A stretch of DNA of 29,480 nucleotides, from IMG/VR virus record IMGVR_UViG_3300046007_012088, positions 1-29,480 of that record; one strand, given 5' to 3'. How positions within the stretch are numbered: position 1 is the first letter of the stretch; each line of letters begins with the position of its first letter. Of this stretch, positions 14,656 through 24,490 are shown in pieces. Both the position numbers and the translations under genes were made by a program. The notes under the pieces were generated by a model. That model was not told the origin of the DNA and did not search any database. It was given only the letters and a program-made list of their open reading frames with translations. Source of the stretch: a virus.

Positions 14656-14659
<4 letters not shown>

Positions 14660-15864
14660 GTAGGATGACCGCAAATCTGCCGTTCTGCGTGGAGGCTGTG
14701 CATCCTTCTGGAATCCCACAGTATGCTGGCGGTAAGCTAACTGCCACGCGACAGTTTGTCGTCGCTTGCAATCGGGCAGAAGAGCTTGGGCTTCGGTTGC
14801 TCGGAAAATGGAGAAGCAGTAACTCGCAGATTCTCTTCAGCACACCACAACTGCCCGCAAGATATCCATATACTCCTGTTGATCAGATTGTTCCTGGTGC
14901 ATTCACAGATTTGAGGCCATGGCCTTTCAACATGGTCGCTGTGGGGTTCTCTATCAGTCCAAAAAGTGAGTGTTGCTTTAACAATGATTGGTACACACGA
15001 GAAGATCAGAATACGAAAATAAATTACATCGACGATTTGGAAAGCAGAGATCAGGCTGAGCGGTATTACAAAGTTTTGTGGGATGATACGGGAGATGGCG
15101 GAAACGAAGCCGCGATGGGAGATACAACATGCAAGTGTGTTGTCTCTGTGCAATACGAGGAGCCGCCATGGGACTGCACTGGGCCTGATGAAAATTCTGC
15201 AACAGCGAACGTAGATATACTTGCCAACACAGCAATCTCCGTTGAGAAGAATTCGTCCTTCGAGCTGTATACACTGCCGAACAGAAACCTTATTTGGGCT
15301 GATTACAGCGGCGCAGATCAGCAACTAAAGGGTGACAGTTACGCGACAATATACGTACCGACTGCCGATATTGTCGTTGATTGGTACAACATACCTGTAG
15401 CGAAGTTGTGCGAGATTGAATCGCATCTTGCGAAGTTCAGGAACCATGTGAACTGCACGCCATTCACTCTGCTGAGCGAATGCCTTTGTCTTTCGAGTAA
15501 GGAAGAGGTGTGCTCAGAGTCAAGCACGGCCGTCAGCGAGTGTAAGTTCGAGAATGAAACTGTTCTATTTCTAGACTGGGATGAGATTAAGGAGCATCGC
15601 ACCCGGGGATTCCGTCTCATGGATACCACTAGTCTCCGGCTGAATTTCAAGCAAAAGCGAATAATCAACTCTGCTCCAGAAGTTTCGACACCTGAGATTG
15701 TTGGCCACAATCATCTGTATCTCGATTCAAATTCAGACAACATTGGCGAAGGAGGATGGAGGCGAGTTGAGCGAAAATACACTGGCGGCAATCAGCCGCT
15801 GTATTACGGTCGCAACTTCAACAACATGTTTGATCCGGCAAAAAATGCTAACGAAGGGTGCTGA
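14656..15864 (+). CDS. Tail tip or distal tail candidate after tape measure
   Basis: A 402-residue protein starting by ATGA overlap with the tape measure stop. The gene directly after the tape measure usually encodes the distal tail protein or hub. The sequence is beta-rich with many aromatic and Asn residues (TPVDQIVPGAFTDLRPWPFN, LIWADYSGADQQLKGDSYAT). It has a Cys cluster (LLSECLCLSSKEEVC) and ends with turns (RKYTGGNQPLYYGRNFNN). I recognise no conserved domain. The base composition here is more A/T-rich than in the head genes, which may mean a different history. The role is inferred from position. Confidence 0.55.
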
Positions 15865-15875
15865 ACTGATTCACC

Positions 15876-17069
15876 ATGGCTACTCGCAAACCTGCTGAAT
15901 GGAAGATCGGTGAAAGGATCACTGCTGAGCATCTCAATGAGATGCGGCGTGAGTCAATGCGTAGCAGGTCAGCCAGTTTTACTGGGCCAAATGTCTCTGT
16001 CATTGGCTGTAATCTTGGATCTGCATCTGCGGCGCATTTGAAGCCAAATGTTCAGTTGGTCATTGCGAGGGAGGACTTCAGCAACGGTCAAATCACTGAT
16101 GCGTATCCGAACAAAGATCGAACGATGTCAGGCAAGTGCAGCCTGATGAAGTTGGATTCGAGCCAGGATCCTGCGCAATACGTCGACGAGAATGAGAACT
16201 TGTTTCAGCCCTTCCGAGTCTGGGATCCGCTGGCAGAACTGACTGGAGCACCGACGAAGAAGCAGGGCGATATCTTCTACTGTGTCTGGAACAAGGACAC
16301 GCAACGGGCTGAGGTGTTGCAGGCCAGTGGTGTCCAGATCCGGCATGGTCTGGTTGGCGACTGCCTTGGGATGGGATGGTATACGGTCGAGCTGATGGAC
16401 TGCATGCAGTTCGAGCCGCCGGACTGCGAGGATTTTGATCCGTATTCAGGTTCTGATCTTGGCTCTGGGTCGGACTCAGGCTCTGGTGGTGGTGGTGATG
16501 GGTGTGAGCTGTGTGAACCTACGGCCGAGGACGCCTGTGGGGATCCCAGCGGCATTCCTGACCTGGCTTTTGGTTGTGCCCAGGCAGAGGTTGTCACGAC
16601 GATCCGTCCGAGGCGGAACAGCCGATGTTATCCGCTGTACGGAAATAATCAGTTCGTCTATGCACTAGACAAGCGCGTCGTGCCGTTGAAGAAAGACGGC
16701 ATGGTCACCATTGCGTATCTCGGAGATACGTGCAGTGGTGGTTCTGGCTGGGAGACGGGCTGCGGTCCTGCGGGATCTGAGAGTGGCAGCAATCCGGAGA
16801 CAGGAAAAGGTCTGTGGGTTGTCCTGAACGGCGAGTATGAGACGGTCTCGATTCCCTATGAGCGGTACGAGTGCTGCGAGGATGGGACGGTCAAAAGGAT
16901 TCAGTGTACGATGTTCATCGTTGAGGGATCTGTGTGCGTTGGTCCGGTGGATCCATGCCCAACCGACTCTGGTTCAGGGAGCGATTCCGGCTCAGGCTCA
17001 GGCTCAGGCTCAGGATCGGGATCTGGCGGCGGCGGTGGTCCCGGGCTGGAAGGCGGAGAAACACCGTAG
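15876..17069 (+). CDS. Tail-associated structural protein with Ser-Gly linkers
   Basis: A 397-residue protein starting MATRKPAEWKIGERITAEHL, an N-terminal helix pattern (W..G..ITA..LN) common to phage tail-fibre or baseplate attachment proteins. The two globular parts are separated by an Asp/Ser/Gly linker (DPYSGSDLGSGSDSGSGGGG, about residues 189-209) and followed by a C-terminal tail of alternating Ser-Gly (16968-17039). Cysteines occur in pairs (CELCEPTAEDACG, YECCEDG). It lies between the tail-tip candidate and the Cys-rich protein. The linkers are good candidates for flexible joints or O-glycosylation sites, given the sugar-enzyme island that follows. The function is otherwise unknown. 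Confidence 0.6.
   Translation: MATRKPAEWKIGERITAEHLNEMRRESMRSRSASFTGPNVSVIGCNLGSASAAHLKPNVQLVIAREDFSNGQITDAYPNKDRTMSGKCSLMKLDSSQDPAQYVDENENLFQPFRVWDPLAELTGAPTKKQGDIFYCVWNKDTQRAEVLQASGVQIRHGLVGDCLGMGWYTVELMDCMQFEPPDCEDFDPYSGSDLGSGSDSGSGGGGDGCELCEPTAEDACGDPSGIPDLAFGCAQAEVVTTIRPRRNSRCYPLYGNNQFVYALDKRVVPLKKDGMVTIAYLGDTCSGGSGWETGCGPAGSESGSNPETGKGLWVVLNGEYETVSIPYERYECCEDGTVKRIQCTMFIVEGSVCVGPVDPCPTDSGSGSDSGSGSGSGSGSGSGGGGGPGLEGGETP
16968..17039 (+). repeat. Ser-Gly codon repeat
   Basis: Alternating serine and glycine codons (TCA/TCT/TCG and GGC/GGA/GGG), largely tandem GGCTCA units, end in five glycines. They form the C-terminal tail of the tail-associated protein. A weaker Ser/Asp/Gly run lies at about 16446-16500 in the same gene. 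The repeat structure suggests expansion by slippage. Confidence 0.9.
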
Positions 17070-17731
17070 TGGGATTCACGGCGACAAACCCTGCGATTCT
17101 GGAATGCTGCGGCTGCGGCTGTGTGGGCTGCTGTGTCCCGCTGCGCTATGACAGTCCGCAGTACCCGGGCGGGTATATCCCGGCAATCCCGTTTGAAATC
17201 ATGGCTCCCGGTTGTCCTGAAATCGACGGGGCGACAGGGTCCTTTCCGCCGGTCGATCCGACTGCTCCGATCAAAGGCAGGTGCGGTGCCTGTGCGACGT
17301 TCTGCTCGACTGTGCAGGCGGTTTTGGCTGGGACGTTCCGCGTTGAGCTGGGCGGCATGTGCATGACAAGTCCGTGCGGGTTTAAGTTCTGCCTGGCGCT
17401 GGAATGCACCGCCTCTCAGGAGCCTGCCACGGATCCGTTGCTGGAACCCTGCTGCAGTCGTTTCCGGCTGTGGATCGGCACAGACGTGACTCAGGTGGAA
17501 GACAACGGGCAGCGGCCGGCAAGTCTGCTCGACTGTCAGTTGGCCTGCGTAAGCTGGAAAGCCGTTGCCCCGACCAGTTGCGTCTGCCTGCCGGACGGTG
17601 GCGGTTTCAGCGGACGGTTTCCTCTGGCGATCAATTACTACTGCCCGAGCTTCCCGAGTGGACCGTGTGCCGGCCAGCCGAACTGCTGCTTGCTCAACTG
17701 TGATTTGAGCGACGCCGAACTCGTGGTATGA
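17069..17731 (+). CDS. Extremely Cys-rich tail-region protein
   Basis: 220 residues with about 25 cysteines (11%), including ECCGCGCVGCCVP near the start and PNCCLLNCDLSD near the end. The start is GTG 17069, which shares one base with the preceding TAG and has GGAG upstream. The same frame continues 45 codons upstream, but that stretch is the out-of-frame reading of the Ser-Gly repeat (RLRLRLR) and is not protein-like. It resembles no family I know. The phrases SRFRLWIGTDVTQVEDNG and AGTFRVELGG look like small beta domains. It could be a disulfide- or metal-stabilised tip protein. It directly precedes the sugar-enzyme island. Confidence 0.6.
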   Translation: MGFTATNPAILECCGCGCVGCCVPLRYDSPQYPGGYIPAIPFEIMAPGCPEIDGATGSFPPVDPTAPIKGRCGACATFCSTVQAVLAGTFRVELGGMCMTSPCGFKFCLALECTASQEPATDPLLEPCCSRFRLWIGTDVTQVEDNGQRPASLLDCQLACVSWKAVAPTSCVCLPDGGGFSGRFPLAINYYCPSFPSGPCAGQPNCCLLNCDLSDAELVV

Positions 17732-17752: not shown

Positions 17753-17983
17753 ATGGGCGAACAGTGTCAGTGTCCGCTGGCTGGATATTGTGAACGGCGG
17801 AAAACCCGCATACCGACAGCACACTGGCAGATGTGTCAGCGTGGGCTGGTGGCGCAGGTCGACAAACTGTGGGCACAGGCTCCGGTGCGTCGTGAGTCTG
17901 GCATGACGATCTCAGAAACAGCAGCGCTACCACCGGAGAAGAAATGTGGTTGTGGGACGCGACTGAAGGGTTTCGTGAGGTGA
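17753..17983 (+). CDS. Small Cys-rich, probably metal-binding protein
   Basis: A 76-residue protein with GGAGGG 8 bases before the ATG. The N-terminus CQCPLAGYCERR and later HWQMCQRG give a C-x-C-x5-C...H/C pattern, and the C-terminus has KKCGCGTRL. A small zinc-binding module is likely. I have a general memory of comparable short Cys-rich frames next to glycosyltransferase genes in phage-like clusters, but cannot confirm it. It is the first gene of the modification island and might be an adaptor or a substrate. Confidence 0.55.
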   Translation: MGEQCQCPLAGYCERRKTRIPTAHWQMCQRGLVAQVDKLWAQAPVRRESGMTISETAALPPEKKCGCGTRLKGFVR

Positions 17984-17986
17984 CGT

Positions 17987-18136
17987 ATGCTGCGAGTCTT
18001 TTGTGTGTGGCTACTGGCGATCGGGATTGTCGAGTCGTGGAACGGCATTGCCGGCTACTTCGTGGAGTCTGCTCGAATCCAGCGTGATATCAGGCAGATG
18101 CAGGAGGAGATTGATCGGGGGCTGGGATGGGACTGA
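17987..18136 (+). CDS. Small single-pass membrane protein
   Basis: A 49-residue frame starting MLRVFCVWLLAIGIVESWNG, with GAGGTGA directly upstream of the ATG and only 3 bases after the previous stop. The first 15 or so residues are a membrane segment. The rest is an amphipathic charged helix (ARIQRDIRQMQEEIDRGLG). It overlaps the following gene by 10 bases. The tight packing supports it. It could be a membrane-bound accessory or a small inhibitor, but no function can be given. Confidence 0.55.
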   Translation: MLRVFCVWLLAIGIVESWNGIAGYFVESARIQRDIRQMQEEIDRGLGWD

Positions 18137-19479
18137 GAGCATTGTGGCACAAAAGGCAGCCGTGGTATGTTCCGGCCGCCAGTCCGGTGCAGCCGGCGCA
18201 GAAGACGGCAGGTCGAATGGCAAGAATGCCTGCGGATGTGCCACGGAATCTTGTGTGGCATTTTTATCCTGTCCCGCATGTCTGGCAGTGGCATGCCGAC
18301 AACCTGCGTGAGTTGTTGTCGTCAGGGGCATTTGATGGCGGCAGAGTAATCATCGGGATCTCGACGGACGGCACTACGGATACCGCACAAGATGTGCAGG
18401 ACAGGATTGGCACATCCGGGATTGACTGGATCCTGACACACAACATCAATCACGACGCAGCGCCGTTTGCGTCTGGGCAGCGGTTTGGCGAATTGCAGAC
18501 TGCTATCCCGGCGATGGAGATGCTGAGAGGCGTTGGCGAGTCAGTGACGTTTTATGGACATGCGAAGGGCGTGCGACCGCATACAAAGACATCGGAGGCT
18601 GTGCGTATCTGGTCAGAGATGATGTACGAAACTGTGATGTTCAACGCCGACTTTTGCGTGGACAAGATCTCTGAGGGTTATGATTTTGTTGGGTCTTTTG
18701 TGACAGGCAATTGTCCGCAATTTCGGACGCGGTATTCTTGGCATTACAGCGGAACGTACTATGCGTTTCGTACCAGAAGGATGGTCTCTGAAAGACTGGT
18801 TCTGCCTTATCAGTTAGTTTATGGCGGAACAGAAATGTGGCCGGGAAACCACGTTGCAAGACAGGATGCCTATTGTGTGTTCGCTGACAGCAGCCCTTGC
18901 ATACGACAATACGACATCAGGCAGATGCTTTATGTTACAGACCAGCAGATGTACTGGGAGAGCAGTCGATTCGGAGGTGGTCCCCACATTGATCAGCACT
19001 ATCGGGAATTCCTCTGGCTGATGAATGAGATTTCTGGAATGGGGCGTGGGCTGATCATTGGATCAAACCATGGCGGGCTGGAGCATCACATTCTGAGTCG
19101 TGGCTATGCTGGCGAGATCGTCAGCGTGGACATTGCCCCGAAGCCGACAAATACGGCACCGCGATTGATTATCGGTGATTCGATGTCTGAGACGGTTCAG
19201 CAGCAGGTCAGGGATTGTGGACCGTATGACTGGGTGTTTATCGACGGTGATCACTCTGAGCACGGGGCGAGAAAAGACTTCGAGTTTGCGATTTCGTTGT
19301 CTCCACGTAAAATATTTTTCCATGACATTCTGAAGTCGTCGTTTCATTTGCATCATGGATGTTTGGTCGACATTGTGTGGGCGGATGTGAAAAAGTCTGC
19401 CAGCTCGTTCGGTTGGTCCGTCCGAGAGAAGGTTGTTGGCTGTGGCTGGGGCGGCATTGGTGCCGTGGAATTGAGGTAA
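18127..19479 (+). CDS. Glycosyltransferase-like plus SAM-methyltransferase fusion
   Basis: A 450-residue two-domain protein. Residues about 38-260 resemble a glycosyltransferase-like family often found in unusual phage and environmental clusters: NLVWHFYPVPHVWQWHADNL, TFYGHAKGVRPH, RYSWHYSGTYYAFRTRR and GGTEMWPG. Residues about 300-450 are a class I SAM-dependent methyltransferase of the Methyltransf_24 type: LIIGSNHGGLEHHILS (nucleotide-binding loop), IVSVDIAP (acidic end of strand 2), DWVFIDGDHSEHGARKDFEF, and FFHDI. It may transfer a sugar and methylate it or its carrier. ATG 18127 lies within the end of the preceding small gene. Specificity cannot be read from the sequence. Confidence 0.72.
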   Translation: MGLRALWHKRQPWYVPAASPVQPAQKTAGRMARMPADVPRNLVWHFYPVPHVWQWHADNLRELLSSGAFDGGRVIIGISTDGTTDTAQDVQDRIGTSGIDWILTHNINHDAAPFASGQRFGELQTAIPAMEMLRGVGESVTFYGHAKGVRPHTKTSEAVRIWSEMMYETVMFNADFCVDKISEGYDFVGSFVTGNCPQFRTRYSWHYSGTYYAFRTRRMVSERLVLPYQLVYGGTEMWPGNHVARQDAYCVFADSSPCIRQYDIRQMLYVTDQQMYWESSRFGGGPHIDQHYREFLWLMNEISGMGRGLIIGSNHGGLEHHILSRGYAGEIVSVDIAPKPTNTAPRLIIGDSMSETVQQQVRDCGPYDWVFIDGDHSEHGARKDFEFAISLSPRKIFFHDILKSSFHLHHGCLVDIVWADVKKSASSFGWSVREKVVGCGWGGIGAVELR

Positions 19480-19481
19480 AG

Positions 19482-20501
19482 ATGGCATTACGAGCGAGGC
19501 GGAAACCATCACAAGTGCCTGCGGCAAATCGCCATACTCCTCTGCCAATGCTGGAGTTACCGAGGGATCGGTGGCTTCCTCCGCTGAAGTACGTGCAGAT
19601 TGCCACGCACTCGCGGTGCAACGCGGACTGTGTCTTTTGCCCGTACATTGAGTCGGTGCATCACAAACACCCCGGCATGATGACGGATGAGACGTGGAAT
19701 CTGATCCTCAACAATCTTGTACCGTTCGGTGCCGGCCTGAAAAAGATCTGTCCGTATCTGATGCAGGAGCCTTTGCTGGACAAAAGCATCTATGCAAAGA
19801 TCGCTCAAATTTACGAGCGGTTCCCGCATGTGACTGTCGAGATCAGTACCAATGGTGCTGCACTGACTGAGCAGGCTGTTGAGAAACTGTTTGCTGTGAT
19901 GGAAGGCCGATCTCACGACATCTGGGTGTCGCATCATGGGATCGACAGGGAGACCTTCGAGCACATTATGCAGATTGACTATCAGCGTTCGACTGAGAAT
20001 CTGATACGCATGCTGAAGATGTCGAACGGCCGGTACAACATTAAAATACGCGGTGCAGGGAAATCGAAGGCTGTCAATCGGACGTTCTTCACGAGAGAGC
20101 AGTACGTCGAGTATTGGGAGCGGACGTTCACGGATCATGAGATCAACAGGGCAAATGTTTCTGTTGATGCGTTCGAGTTTCACGATCGGGCAGGATCTTT
20201 GAAGCGTGAGGACCGTGGTGCCAATGAGCTGAATCAGGGGATTGTCCGGCAGATTGGGCCCGGGCATCGGCCGTTCTCCTGCACTCGCATCAATGAATGG
20301 ATCCATTTCATGCACGATGGCAGGATTCGCATCTGCTGCATGGATTACCATCACGAGGTGCAGTTGCCGAGCATCCATGACATGTCGCTGCTCGATTATT
20401 ATCACAGTCCGGAGTACATCGGTTTGGTGAACTGTGTGAGTGGTCGCACAGAATCTCCAGCCGATTTTATTTGCAAGAGATGTACCAGTCCCGGGGGCTA
20501 G
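19482..20501 (+). CDS. Radical SAM/SPASM-type enzyme
   Basis: 339 residues from ATG 19482, which has GAGG upstream. The radical SAM cluster motif is C46-x3-C50-x2-C53 (CNADCVFC). The TIM-barrel region continues with STNGAAL and IWVSHHGID. The C-terminus is SPASM-like, with cysteines in FSCTRINEWIHFMHDGRIRI, then CCMDYHHEV and FICKRC (331 and 334), enough for one or two auxiliary iron-sulfur clusters. Such enzymes modify peptides or sugar-type substrates by radical chemistry. Between glycosyltransferase genes, it may alter a sugar or tail-protein side chain. The substrate is unknown. A longer in-frame start at 19359 lies inside the previous gene and is unlikely. Confidence 0.85.
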   Translation: MALRARRKPSQVPAANRHTPLPMLELPRDRWLPPLKYVQIATHSRCNADCVFCPYIESVHHKHPGMMTDETWNLILNNLVPFGAGLKKICPYLMQEPLLDKSIYAKIAQIYERFPHVTVEISTNGAALTEQAVEKLFAVMEGRSHDIWVSHHGIDRETFEHIMQIDYQRSTENLIRMLKMSNGRYNIKIRGAGKSKAVNRTFFTREQYVEYWERTFTDHEINRANVSVDAFEFHDRAGSLKREDRGANELNQGIVRQIGPGHRPFSCTRINEWIHFMHDGRIRICCMDYHHEVQLPSIHDMSLLDYYHSPEYIGLVNCVSGRTESPADFICKRCTSPGG

Positions 20502-20503
20502 GG

Positions 20504-21505
20504 ATGAACTACAGGAGTAAGCCGGGAGTCATTCTGGCGCACAGTCACAACCTCGGAGCACTGGACGGGCATCGTGGCGTGCGTCCGAGGTGCTGTTACC
20601 GAGACCACTCGATTTCGGAGGGCCCGATTGATCTGGTGGCTGTTGTCAGCAGTTGGAACGATGGTGACATCATCGGGGCAACGGTGCGGAACTGTTTTGC
20701 GCAGGGCTGCAGTCGTGTGCTATTGCTGGATAATGCGTCACAGGATGACACTGTTGAGCAGGCGACGGCGGCCGGTGCTGAGATCGGCGAGATTTACCAG
20801 ACGGATTTCTACGACGACGACCTGCGGATCCGGAAACAGAATCTGCTGGCGAAGGGGATGGTCGAGAAGTCGTCATTGCCAGTCTGCTGGGTACTGTCAC
20901 TGGACGCGGACGAGTTTGTGCATGGTGACCGGTCTGAGACGGTAATTCAGACACTGAGCCGGACGAAGGCCGAGGCGAGGATGGTTGGCACGTACTGTGT
21001 GGACCTGTGCCCTGATTCCCGGGATGGGTATGTGCCGAACACTCATCCAGCGAAGGTCATGACAAAGGGGATCATGAGGCGGACAGACAGTTGTCCGAGT
21101 TGGCACTGGAAGCATGTGGCGATGAAGTATTCCGGTGGGAAGTTCGACATTTCGCAGACTCGTGGCAACCACTTTCCGGCGGCGGGCTGGAACAACAAGA
21201 AACTGACTGAGGACTGTGGCGTACATCTGCCGATGCTGCATGCTCCGTTCAGGAATTACGAGCGATCGCTGTGGCGATTGCGGCTGCTGTGTGGTGGCGA
21301 GGATCGACGGTCGAAGTTCGACGACGACGTGACCGGGAATGCGGGTGCGATCAGACGCCTGCAGATGATCGAGCTGATGTATGAGAAGCGTTATGCTGAG
21401 ATGGAGATGACGCACAATTTCTTCTATGGTCGCTCGATTGTCGGTGCTGTTCCGTATCCGTGGCGGACGTATTGGCCTGAGCTTGTACTGCAGGAGTTGC
21501 GGTAA
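20504..21505 (+). CDS. Family-2-type glycosyltransferase
   Basis: 333 residues. The start, VAVVSSWNDGDIIGATVRNC, then VLLLDNASQDDTVEQATAAG and LSLDADEFVHG at about residue 134, are the signature of a GT-A fold family 2 enzyme of the Glyco_tranf_2_4 kind (DNAS..., then DAD for nucleotide-sugar and metal). ATG 20504 is just after the radical SAM stop, with GGGGG close by. Its product would add sugar to a protein, lipid or glycan chain. It overlaps the next gene by one base (TAATG). The acceptor is unknown; tail or head proteins are plausible given the island's position. Confidence 0.85.
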   Translation: MNYRSKPGVILAHSHNLGALDGHRGVRPRCCYRDHSISEGPIDLVAVVSSWNDGDIIGATVRNCFAQGCSRVLLLDNASQDDTVEQATAAGAEIGEIYQTDFYDDDLRIRKQNLLAKGMVEKSSLPVCWVLSLDADEFVHGDRSETVIQTLSRTKAEARMVGTYCVDLCPDSRDGYVPNTHPAKVMTKGIMRRTDSCPSWHWKHVAMKYSGGKFDISQTRGNHFPAAGWNNKKLTEDCGVHLPMLHAPFRNYERSLWRLRLLCGGEDRRSKFDDDVTGNAGAIRRLQMIELMYEKRYAEMEMTHNFFYGRSIVGAVPYPWRTYWPELVLQELR

Positions 21506-22269
21506 TGTTTGCTCCTGACGGTGTGGTGATGATCTGTGTGGACTTCGCCGACATCCTGGCGCAGACGTTGCCGAGGAACCGCCACCACTTCTCACGTGCC
21601 GTGGTGGTCACGCATCCGGACGACCATGCGACGATTGCGGTGTGTCAGCAGAACAGCGTCGAGTGCCTGCTGACTGAGGTGTTTTATGAGCGGGGCGCGG
21701 AGTTCAACAAGTATGCAGCTCTGGAGATGGGGCTGGACTATCTCGGGCGGCAGGGCTGGATGCTGATCCTGGACTGCGACATCGTGTTGCCGCAGCGGAT
21801 CCCGGAAGTGTTTGCACCGCAGGCGGGGTGTCTGTACACGCCCAGAAGGAGAGATCTCAGGGCGTGGCAGAACGGGATTTTGCCGGATCACCTGTGGAAG
21901 CGGTATCGGTATGTGAACGCGAGGGAGGAGTTCGCAGGGTATTTCCAGTTGTTCCATGCGGACGATCCGGTTTTGGCGGCAAGGCCGTGGTTCGGTCGCG
22001 ACTGGCGGTGGGCTGGGACGGCTGACACCTTCTTTCAGCGGCGGTGGCAGGCCAACAGGCAGATCCGGCCGCCGTTTGAGGTGTTGCATCTGGGAATCCC
22101 GTATGCGAACTGGGCTGGGCGAGTGCAGCCGTATGGGGACGGCCGGATCCCGGAGCAGGCGGAAGAACGGAAGCAGAAGTACGATACGTTTCTGAGGCAG
22201 CGGACGCAGATTGCCGGGCATGATGACCGGTATCAGGGAGAGAAGATATGGACTGGGCTTGCGGAATGA
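21505..22269 (+). CDS. Glycosyltransferase-like, GT-A fold
   Basis: 254 residues, with the start overlapping the previous stop as TAATG. The sequence has a nucleotide-sugar-binding style start (GVVMICVDFADILAQTLPRN, VVVTHPDDHATIAVC) and a DxD motif in WMLILDCDIVLP (D90-C-D92). A C-terminal segment, WAGTADTFFQRRW, resembles the WGGTADT-type acceptor region of small GT-A enzymes. It seems to be a second hexosyl- or pentosyltransferase in the series. The donor cannot be told. Confidence 0.75.
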   Translation: MFAPDGVVMICVDFADILAQTLPRNRHHFSRAVVVTHPDDHATIAVCQQNSVECLLTEVFYERGAEFNKYAALEMGLDYLGRQGWMLILDCDIVLPQRIPEVFAPQAGCLYTPRRRDLRAWQNGILPDHLWKRYRYVNAREEFAGYFQLFHADDPVLAARPWFGRDWRWAGTADTFFQRRWQANRQIRPPFEVLHLGIPYANWAGRVQPYGDGRIPEQAEERKQKYDTFLRQRTQIAGHDDRYQGEKIWTGLAE

Positions 22270-23039
22270 TCGCTGCTCCGAGGCAGAGCAGTGAGAGCAT
22301 TCACCGGAGTTATGAGAGTTGCGTGACGAATGGGTTGAAGCCGCTGATCTTTGCGGAGCCTGGGACCAATGTCCCTGAGGCTGCAGACACGATCTGCAGG
22401 CCGTACACGATTGCGAAACTGCTACAGTATGTAGAGCCTTCGCAGTCTGGGAAGTTTGGGAACTGTCAGAATTATCTGCAATGTGCGTCAGATTTGTTAG
22501 AGGAGTTCAAAACACATGAGGTGATCCTGATTGTGGAGGATGACGCGGTTTTGTGCAGTGGTTCTGTCAGTTTCGTGGATGGTCTGTGCTGGCCGGATGA
22601 GCAGTGTGGGGCGATTAGCCTGTATGCGGCAAATGTGTCGTCTATCAGGGCTGGGATGCGTAGCGAGTTCAGGAGGATGCCACGGAAGTATTTCATGGGT
22701 TCTCTGGCGATTGCGTGGCGTCGGGAGTGTTTGGAGGGCATTGTGCGAGCGGGCGGTTTTAGGGACTGGCATGGTGACGCTGGTCAGCGGGCGAATCCGA
22801 AGATCCCGCGATCGGATATCAAGGGCGTGGATACCATGCTGGCCGTGGAGATGCACAAGCTGAACTATGACTTCTGGACGTTCACCCGAAGTCTGGTGAA
22901 TCACCATGTGCCACGGGGCCTGAAGGACAACAGTGCTTTGAACAACGGGCCGTCCATCGGCCGGCGTGCGACGTTCCGGTATGTCGGTGACAGTCCCGGG
23001 AACCTGCGATCTGTCTTCGGGATTCGGCCGGCGCAATGA
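22248..23039 (+). CDS. GT25-like glycosyltransferase
   Basis: 263 residues from an ATG with AGGGAGA upstream, overlapping the preceding gene by 22 bases. The segment VILIVEDDAVLCSGSVSFVD (E97-D98-D99) is typical of the GT25 (LPS-type) fold, and SLYAANVSS, KYFMGSLAIAWRREC and the distal SLVNHHVPRG follow. The N-terminus, APRQSSESIHRSYESCVTNG, is the usual first strand-helix. It probably acts on a glycan with a retaining or inverting mechanism that cannot be read here. Overlap with both neighbours shows one transcription unit. Confidence 0.72.
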   Translation: MDWACGMIAAPRQSSESIHRSYESCVTNGLKPLIFAEPGTNVPEAADTICRPYTIAKLLQYVEPSQSGKFGNCQNYLQCASDLLEEFKTHEVILIVEDDAVLCSGSVSFVDGLCWPDEQCGAISLYAANVSSIRAGMRSEFRRMPRKYFMGSLAIAWRRECLEGIVRAGGFRDWHGDAGQRANPKIPRSDIKGVDTMLAVEMHKLNYDFWTFTRSLVNHHVPRGLKDNSALNNGPSIGRRATFRYVGDSPGNLRSVFGIRPAQ

Positions 23040-23734
23040 GACTGCTGATCGACGTGCAGAGTGTGTACTGGACTGAGGAGTGCAGTCGGTACCGTCTGGC
23101 GATGTCTGAGGCGACGCTGGTGGAGAGCCTCAAACATCTGGACATGACCGGGATCGAGGCATGCTGCGGGCTTTGGCAGTGCCCGATGGATCCGTGGTGG
23201 AAGCGTCGGCGCGGGGTGCTGCAGATTCCCGGGTGGCAGGTGAACCGGTACAACGGGTGCAGCAAACGGCCGATAGGGAACCAGTGTACGCTGTACGTCA
23301 CTGATGACGTGGTGCTGCATCCTGACAGCCTGCAGGTCTGTCGTGAGATCTGGGAGCGGCAGAGGCGGCGGGATGCGAACGGGTCAATTCTCTGGCATTT
23401 TCGGCATGGCCTGGAGATTGGAGCGGACGTGCAGAGGGTGTGCCTGAAGGATGCTCCTGTGCGGTTTGAGTGCAACGTGGCGGCCGGACCGGTGGCGTCG
23501 CAGGTGGATTTGCGGTGTGATCCGTTGTGGGCTGTGGCGCGGCATGGGATGCGAGAGCATGAGGTGGAGTCGTTCGAGGGGCCCGGGGTTTTGTGGAAAT
23601 CGTGTGCTGTGAATATGATCAGGAGATACTCGAAGACGCGGATGATTACGGGAACGTGGAGTGGTGCGAGGGCGTTCTGGCACAAATCCAAATCCTGCTT
23701 CCGTCGTGCGGGGTACAGGAACTGTCGGCGATGA
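23036..23734 (+). CDS. Weakly glycosyltransferase-like protein at island end
   Basis: 232 residues, starting by ATGA overlap. The middle has LYVTDDVVLHPDSLQVC (D90-D91), which could be a nucleotide-sugar motif, and a distal MITGTWSGARAFWHK. The N-terminus is Trp/Cys-rich (EACCGLWQCPMDPWW). The DD pair and the neighbours suggest a further transferase. A second frame over 23593-23734 is also protein-like (EYDQEILEDADDYGNVEWCE), so the last 50 residues may be overprinted or shifted. This is the least certain member of the series. Confidence 0.55.
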   Translation: MRLLIDVQSVYWTEECSRYRLAMSEATLVESLKHLDMTGIEACCGLWQCPMDPWWKRRRGVLQIPGWQVNRYNGCSKRPIGNQCTLYVTDDVVLHPDSLQVCREIWERQRRRDANGSILWHFRHGLEIGADVQRVCLKDAPVRFECNVAAGPVASQVDLRCDPLWAVARHGMREHEVESFEGPGVLWKSCAVNMIRRYSKTRMITGTWSGARAFWHKSKSCFRRAGYRNCRR

Positions 23735-24075
23735 CTGAGATGCTGTGGTACTGTCTGGTTGTGGCGGGTGTGAGTGTGACGATGGGTCAGATGCACGGGC
23801 CGTTTGGTCTGTGCTATGACTTCCGCCGATGGGTTGAAAGAAAGATCCAGTTTGGCGGTTCCGACAATGCTGTTGAGAGAGCGAAACGCCTCCAGCAGTA
23901 TGAGTGGATTTTGGTGGGCGTGAAGTGTCCGATCTGCTGGTCGTTCTGGGTGTCGATGGTGGCTGCTGTGATTTGGGCCCCGACTCTGGAATGGCGAGTG
24001 TTGTTACAATACTGGCTCGGTGGCATGGGGTTCGTGGCAGTAGTGATGCTGCTGAGTCCCCCGTCGAACGAGTGA
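23731..24075 (+). CDS. DUF1360-like membrane protein
   Basis: 114 residues from ATG 23731, which overlaps the previous stop as ATGA. The core VGVKCPICWSFWVSMVAAVI, with C-x2-C and SFW, is the hallmark of DUF1360 membrane proteins found in phages. An N-terminal membrane segment (MLWYCLVVAGVSVTMGQ) and a last one (WLGGMGFVAVVMLL) make three in all. A longer form from GTG 23593 would add a 46-residue acidic head and overlap the preceding gene by 142 bases. I prefer the short form by start context. The family's role is not known. A strong terminator follows. Confidence 0.72.
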   Translation: MTEMLWYCLVVAGVSVTMGQMHGPFGLCYDFRRWVERKIQFGGSDNAVERAKRLQQYEWILVGVKCPICWSFWVSMVAAVIWAPTLEWRVLLQYWLGGMGFVAVVMLLSPPSNE

Positions 24076-24078
24076 TCT

Positions 24079-24134
24079 GCCCGGGATGCCAGCCGGATGC
24101 CACAGCGGCTGGACGCCCCATCCCGGGCTTTTTT
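24079..24134 (+). terminator. Rho-independent terminator, two-tier hairpin
   Basis: Outer stem GCCCGGGATG (24079-24088) with CATCCCGGGC (24119-24128) is 10 bp and perfect. An inner stem, CCAGCCG (24089-24095) with CGGCTGG (24106-24112), is 7 bp. T6 follows at 24129-24134. It lies 3 bases after the DUF1360-like gene stop and closes the unit that contains the sugar-enzyme island. Confidence 0.92.
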
Positions 24135-24145
24135 AAGGCTTTGCC

Positions 24146-24490
24146 ATGAGTTATGCCTACGAGCATGTGGAAGTGCTTCGGGTTCTGGACGGAGACACTG
24201 TCGAGTTGCGTATCGACATGGGCAACTCCATCCACTGGACCGGGAAGTTTCGGCTTTACGGCGTGGATACGCCAGAACTGCATGGAGACACTCAGGCTGC
24301 CGGACAGATGGCCGCCGATTATCTGCGGGCGTTGATTGCTGCCTTTGGCATACTGGAGGTCCAGACGTTGAAGCCGGACAAGTTCGGGCGGTGGTTGGCG
24401 AAGATGCAGCTCCGGGATGGGCGTGACGTCTCTGAGTGTTTGGTTAATGCCGGTCATGCTGTGGGGTACTGGGGAGGCAAAAAGTCATGA
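24146..24490 (+). CDS. Thermonuclease-like (staphylococcal nuclease fold) protein
   Basis: 114 residues, a single SNase domain (PF00565 type) without an obvious signal peptide. The calcium and catalytic residues match: VLDGDTVELRI (D15, D17), FRLYGVDTPEL (R36, D41, E44) and KFGRWLAKMQL (R82). SNase enzymes cut DNA and RNA. In a phage it might degrade host nucleic acid or act on DNA at entry. AAGG lies upstream of the ATG, and the terminator precedes it, so the gene may have its own promoter, but I see none clearly. It overlaps the next gene by 4 bases (ATGA). Confidence 0.9.
   Translation: MSYAYEHVEVLRVLDGDTVELRIDMGNSIHWTGKFRLYGVDTPELHGDTQAAGQMAADYLRALIAAFGILEVQTLKPDKFGRWLAKMQLRDGRDVSECLVNAGHAVGYWGGKKS

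Follow-up and report, generated by a model that had tools for sequence, protein, structure and literature searches.

What would bring a radical SAM enzyme and a series of predicted sugar transferases among the virion genes of a tailed phage, and on what would these enzymes act? The question is raised by a 29,480-base record of an uncultured virus (the whole stretch is called the window here), in which terminase, portal, a weak capsid match and a tape-measure-like gene follow one another in tailed-phage order. An initial annotation, made from the letters alone, proposed a pathway that places a rare, methylated or radical-modified sugar or peptide mark on the virion or the host surface. The lineage is one of uncultured tailed phages, probably virulent, and its viral relatives are metagenomic contigs throughout, part of them redundant.

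Layout of the enzyme run

Genes are named below by their start positions (Table 1). All genes listed in the initial annotation are open frames at the places given for them, and their tight coupling is borne out: from the tail genes (14656, 15876 and 17066) through the membrane-protein gene ending at 24075, spacings range from -22 to +21 bp. Promoter-like matches occur at chance level only. The terminator said to close the run is present, but it lies about 350 bp past the end first given, after one more small membrane-protein gene; its stem is kept in two relatives, L002 and L019. The simplest reading of this layout is that the cluster is transcribed together with the virion genes. In the genes compared with L002 or L019, dN/dS is 0.02-0.17, and within the cluster it is 0.04-0.15 against L002, which indicates purifying selection. 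A second contig, L061, equals the window over 6.8 kb and spans the left junction of the cluster. Because it ends inside the fusion gene 18127, the right junction of that gene is known from the window record alone, where the reading frames on its two sides are tightly coupled. A staphylococcal-nuclease-like gene (phrog_452; 24146-24490) begins right behind the terminator.

Table 1 Features of the tail-gene and enzyme run in the window.
Feature	Position	Strand	Evidence
Tail-end protein, lineage marker for the tree	14656..15864	+	3' of tape-measure-like gene; orthologs in ~20 viral contigs
Tail-end protein with Ser/Gly-rich tracts, possible acceptor	15876..17069	+	Densest Ser stretch of the window, 10/20 residues
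Cys-rich tail-end protein, candidate acceptor	17066..17731	+	Ortholog directly before Cys-headed transferase in L069/L103
Small Cys-rich protein, putative detached head of the 18127 family	17753..17983	+	Motif fused to transferase in L069/L103, L098, L104, L084
49-aa protein, one likely membrane helix	17987..18136	+	Hydropathy
Fusion: unnamed transferase-like domain (~residues 35-266) and putative class I methyltransferase (~285-450)	18127..19479	+	
Radical SAM enzyme, Twitch/SPASM C-terminus, BtrN-like	19482..20501	+	Pfam, PDB sequence profile, invariant Cys, model and Foldseek
Family-2 glycosyltransferase, always adjoins the window's radical SAM type	20504..21505	+	Glyco_tranf_2_4 E 5.5e-8, orthologs
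GT-A-like protein with DxD, constant core	21505..22269	+	17 viral loci; relative matches Glyco_tranf_2_4 at E 0.07
GT-like protein, EDD motif, usual core	22248..23039	+	Orthologs; no Pfam match above cut-off
GT-like protein, Rhamno_transf-like, constant core	23036..23734	+	Relative matches PF11316 at E 0.07
Small membrane protein, phrog_781-like, weakly DUF1360-like	23731..24075	+	
Intrinsic terminator at the end of the run	24079..24134	+	-33.7 kcal/mol, z -3.3, T6 tail

Predicted enzymes of the run

The 19482 protein scores above the Pfam cut-offs for both Radical_SAM and SPASM, and it carries the CxxxCxxC motif and partial TIM-barrel fold of the radical SAM superfamily (Pfam, Foldseek). C46, C50 and C53 are invariant in 13 homologues, where the only invariant auxiliary cysteines are C267, C285, C286, C331 and C334. 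The SPASM label of the initial annotation therefore holds at the level of the Pfam cut-offs, but the seven auxiliary cysteines and two extra clusters of a full SPASM domain are not present in the protein. It has instead C267-x17-C285-x45-C331-x2-C334 and a Twitch fold, with BtrN among the top folds, and is predicted to be of the Twitch type with a single auxiliary cluster. BtrN, the 2-deoxy-scyllo-inosamine dehydrogenase, is itself a Twitch radical SAM enzyme and is the best solved relative by sequence (PDB profile search, E 8e-11). The two share the fold, the three radical SAM cysteines and auxiliary cysteine positions readable in the alignment, where HMMER matches C285, C331 and C334 to BtrN cysteines; they differ in that identity is about 15% in the structure alignment and that 19482 has the extra C286 and a longer C-terminus ending CTSPGG.

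Foldseek matches of the predicted structure (pTM 0.79) are SuiB (top), MoaA, BtrN (TM 0.67-0.73 by target length), BlsE and DesII. The substrates of BtrN, BlsE and DesII are sugars or cyclitols and that of SuiB is a peptide, so the fold matches leave the substrate class undecided. A role in defence was rejected, its sole support being a weak viperin match (E 2e-4).

Cellular relatives with 50-54% identity occur in 3 of 192 SAR324 genomes searched and in 1 of 187 deltaproteobacterial genomes. Sharing of the cluster with host lipopolysaccharide operons had been named at the outset as a point to check; in the part checked, these relatives lie outside any glycosyltransferase operon, with no glycosyltransferase neighbours wherever the neighbourhood was seen. 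The stand-alone SAR324 and deltaproteobacterial relatives (L008:7938-8927, L010:7887-8936, L063:1498-2583 and L038:1462-2424) and the phage enzymes have the C-terminus C-x2-C-[ST]-SPGG in common. SAR324 as host, suggested by these homologues, was not upheld: a search of 98 SAR324 genomes, run without a positive control, did not find the tail protein. Planctomycetota would be no more than a guess at the host.

Three to four genes had been called glycosyltransferase-like. For one of them the call is firm: 20504 is by sequence a clear family-2 glycosyltransferase (GT2), above the curated cut-off for PF13704 (33.6 bits against 27.5). For 21505, 22248 and 23036 the Pfam matches, including those of relatives, stay below threshold and the one fold model, that of 23036, is of low confidence, weak evidence that makes them GT-like at best. 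The low-confidence model of 23036 resembles GT-A/nucleotidyltransferase folds; we dropped this as a firm assignment and treat it as suggestive at most. Comparing the profiles of the GT-like families with one another revealed no link.

The fusion 18127 had been described as joining a glycosyltransferase to a methyltransferase. Its methyltransferase half matches Methyltransf_24 with E 6e-5, at 24.4 bits against a cut-off of 26.3; homologues give repeated matches below threshold, and this half is 43-51% identical in 12 other loci. The N-terminal half has no Pfam or PDB sequence match in 21 members, so that "GT" is here a label by association; in L109 and L120, known GT domains are fused to this same unnamed domain. 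Very large viral fusions (L109:4153-7236 and L131:4135-6687) combine it with Glyco_trans_1_2, Stealth_CR2 and a methyltransferase in one chain.

The N-terminal half of 18127 is present in 55 viral loci, forming a Cys-head/transferase/METHYLTRANSFERASE family in which many members begin with a Cys-rich head. Head, transferase and methyltransferase are a single chain in L084, and in L069/L103 the head is fused to the transferase directly 3' of the 17066 ortholog. The strict head motif occurs in 0 of 697 other ORFs. Because the head is fused to the transferase elsewhere and absent from those ORFs, 17753 is most plausibly a domain of the 18127 family that is here encoded separately.

There are phage glycosyltransferases with DNA as their substrate, as cited in PMC12619734, and the transferases of the run might on that model glycosylate modified bases. 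Such DNA hypermodification is disfavoured, and in our judgement very improbable, since the thymidylate-synthase family is absent from 11 related records of up to 57 kb, a Tet/JBP search run without a positive control was empty, and the cluster sits in a tail operon.

Cassette exchange among relatives

Viral contigs were scanned with the cluster genes and a tail gene. The gene order, which the initial annotation had proposed to seek in other phages, recurs, and the same slot is found in about 17 distinct phages. Its right side is constant, comprising 21505 and 23036 and usually also 22248 and the small membrane protein, and its left side holds alternative gene sets, in the window 17753, 17987, the fusion, the radical SAM enzyme and the GT2. 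The right side of L002 is 95.7% identical to the window in DNA, and this relative is without the fusion gene. L019, with flanks about 95% identical, is without the radical SAM enzyme and the GT2 and has other GT-like genes and an FkbM methyltransferase instead. L003, L004 and L005 carry the window's radical SAM type at 68%; the rest of their left side is made up of other genes, among them a cytidylyltransferase in L004.

A different radical SAM family occupies the slot in about nine distinct phages. It matches PF04055 just under the cut-off and is adjoined by methyltransferases and a capsule-synthesis-like transferase. Members of this second family (CDLACSNCTQGSQFGGK, GVFGGNP) lie at L021:8497-9417, L022:8497-9417, L067:14062-15000, L075:14339-15277 and L060:2060-3040; the one member searched, that of L022, has no match in the cultured-phage collection. 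The cluster proteins tested have no relatives in cultured phages or plasmids. In the tail-protein tree, 3300044678_002246, which has the window's radical SAM type, nests in a clade (100/100) of the other type, and at least 3 to 4 changes are needed for each type; row c46005 of the tree, labelled 'none', is a locus stopping short of the cassette.

Every phage with the window's radical SAM type has the same GT2 directly behind the enzyme gene. This pairing, the recruitment of two radical SAM families to one glycosyltransferase slot and the rank of BtrN as best PDB sequence match argue against a peptide or protein substrate (for example the Cys-rich tail protein or 17753), in which case the glycosyltransferases would be a separate function sharing the slot. 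With SuiB as the top fold match and bacterial homologues that are solitary and away from glycosyltransferases on its side, this explanation still appears quite unlikely to us.

Candidate acceptors and proposed role

In 12 of 25 non-redundant loci (14 of 29 before redundancy reduction), a Cys cluster lies early in the gene directly 5' of the transferase; among control ORFs the figure is 4 of 243. The p value of 3.5e-11 is optimistic because the motif was defined after several examples had been seen. Several of the loci counted as negative seem to miss the same pattern narrowly. Tail proteins with an N-terminal CCCxGC ... CCxCxPxxxC are widespread in phages and lie directly before Cys-headed transferases (L084:3611-5317, L102:4326-5618, L106:4349-5632 and L003:5288-7429); we found no family name for them.

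In 11 phages the last tail genes contain a strong Ser-rich stretch, which is missing in L067 and L069. Both of these have GT cassettes, so the stretch cannot be a general acceptor; we rejected it as a required one and keep it as a mere possibility. Ser-rich simple repeats (SSSS, SASAS, SGSGS) of differing sequence are found in the same tail gene of the window and its relatives (L004:1831-3648, L003:4415-7429, window:16900-17060), as if composition rather than sequence were kept across the lineage. Gram-positive serine-rich-repeat adhesin loci also encode a protein with a Ser-rich tract beside glycosyltransferases; the tract of the window's lineage, in contrast, is short and variable, and two relatives retain the cassette without it.

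We propose a late-expressed, exchangeable glycan-modification locus that acts on a tail-end protein, and consider the chance that this is correct to be about even. Soluble transferases would build a short glycan on a tail-end protein, the likeliest being 17066, or possibly 15876, whose genes lie immediately 5' of the cluster. The Cys-rich head 17753 would help the 18127 transferase to find the tail protein, the methyltransferase half of 18127 would cap the sugar, and the BtrN-like enzyme may oxidise or rearrange one of the sugar's carbons, either ahead of the transfer or following it. Since relatives exchange the enzymes of the left side and retain the core on the right, their final marks would differ, and this may change how receptors are bound or protect the tail.

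This proposal is favoured by where the genes lie and how tightly they are coupled, by the constancy of the core and by the pairing with a Cys-rich tail protein. It is further supported by the transferases, in which hydropathy finds no clear membrane helices, and by the presence of BtrN, BlsE and DesII among the nearest folds. It is weakened by the bacterial radical SAM relatives, which are not beside glycosyltransferases, by SuiB as the top fold match, by the loss of the Ser-rich tract in two relatives with cassettes, and by the weak footing of the GT label for three genes and of the transferase assignment for half of the fusion. The best-supported part of the original interpretation is thus a sugar-modification pathway linked to virion genes, through the operon, the slot, the core and the Cys-rich tail protein beside the Cys-headed transferase; a radical-made mark, and the virion rather than the host surface as its site, are our inference.

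Modification of the host surface is the main rival to tail modification. The enzymes would alter host lipopolysaccharide or another surface glycan, blocking superinfection or the sticking of virions to debris, and the pelagimyophage island, rich in glycosyltransferases and situated among structural genes, has been read in this way (PMC7029224). Small membrane proteins recur in the slot and one relative has a capsule-synthesis-like transferase, as might be expected under host modification, but by hydropathy the run contains neither a flippase nor a polymerase-like membrane enzyme, nor the membrane genes of a GtrABC-type module (membrane flippase, membrane-bound transferase, temperate phage). 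No integrase matched in 12 records, some of them fragments, which makes lysogenic conversion unlikely, and lysogenic serotype conversion was rejected. Expression alongside late virion genes would be late for superinfection protection, and the paired Cys-rich tail protein is left unexplained. We judge host-surface modification unlikely, if a serious contender.

The hypervariable host recognition cluster of pelagimyophages, which places glycosyltransferase and radical SAM cassettes among structural genes (PMC7029224), and the two radical SAM families within the present lineage also qualify the initial view that the arrangement is not a usual phage module, which was partly right. Both systems have such cassettes within virion genes, differing between close relatives, a likeness of organisation and not of shared descent. 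Pelagimyophages are large and T4-like, with islands that average 44.6 kb and include tail fibres, whereas the run in the window is compact, at about 6 kb; its core is fixed, its BtrN-like enzyme is tied to a single GT2, and its transferase partners are Cys-headed.

Tail modification also finds a precedent in the mycobacteriophages Che8, Corndog and Myrna, which glycosylate the capsid as well as the tail tube of their virions (Freeman 2023 as cited in PMC12363180). That transferases encoded by the phage act on virion proteins is shown there and is proposed for the window from genes alone; as described in that citing account, the mycobacteriophage system is without a radical SAM enzyme or methyltransferase fusion, unlike the window.

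The general kind of system is thus already known from pelagimyophage islands and mycobacteriophage virion glycosylation. New elements are the lineage itself, the fixed pairing of the BtrN-like enzyme with a GT2, a slot in which two radical SAM types are exchanged, and the Cys-headed transferases as a family, together with the tail protein encoded beside them. We tentatively suggest, at well below an even chance, an undescribed tailed-phage family in which Cys-headed transferases, often joined to a methyltransferase, would have the paired Cys-rich tail protein as their dedicated acceptor, with the BtrN-like enzyme putting a radical-made sugar on the tail glycan and cassette exchange keeping the mark changing.

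The analysis draws attention to a viral protein family that is widespread and unannotated (Cys head, transferase, methyltransferase), and it provides testable pairs of enzyme and acceptor for virion glycosylation in uncultured phages. A radical SAM enzyme is an unexpected element at this position and, if it does act on phage glycans, would be unusual chemistry for a virus. Exchange of the enzymes as cassettes while the tail stays nearly unchanged is what would be expected if the mark were under changing selection.
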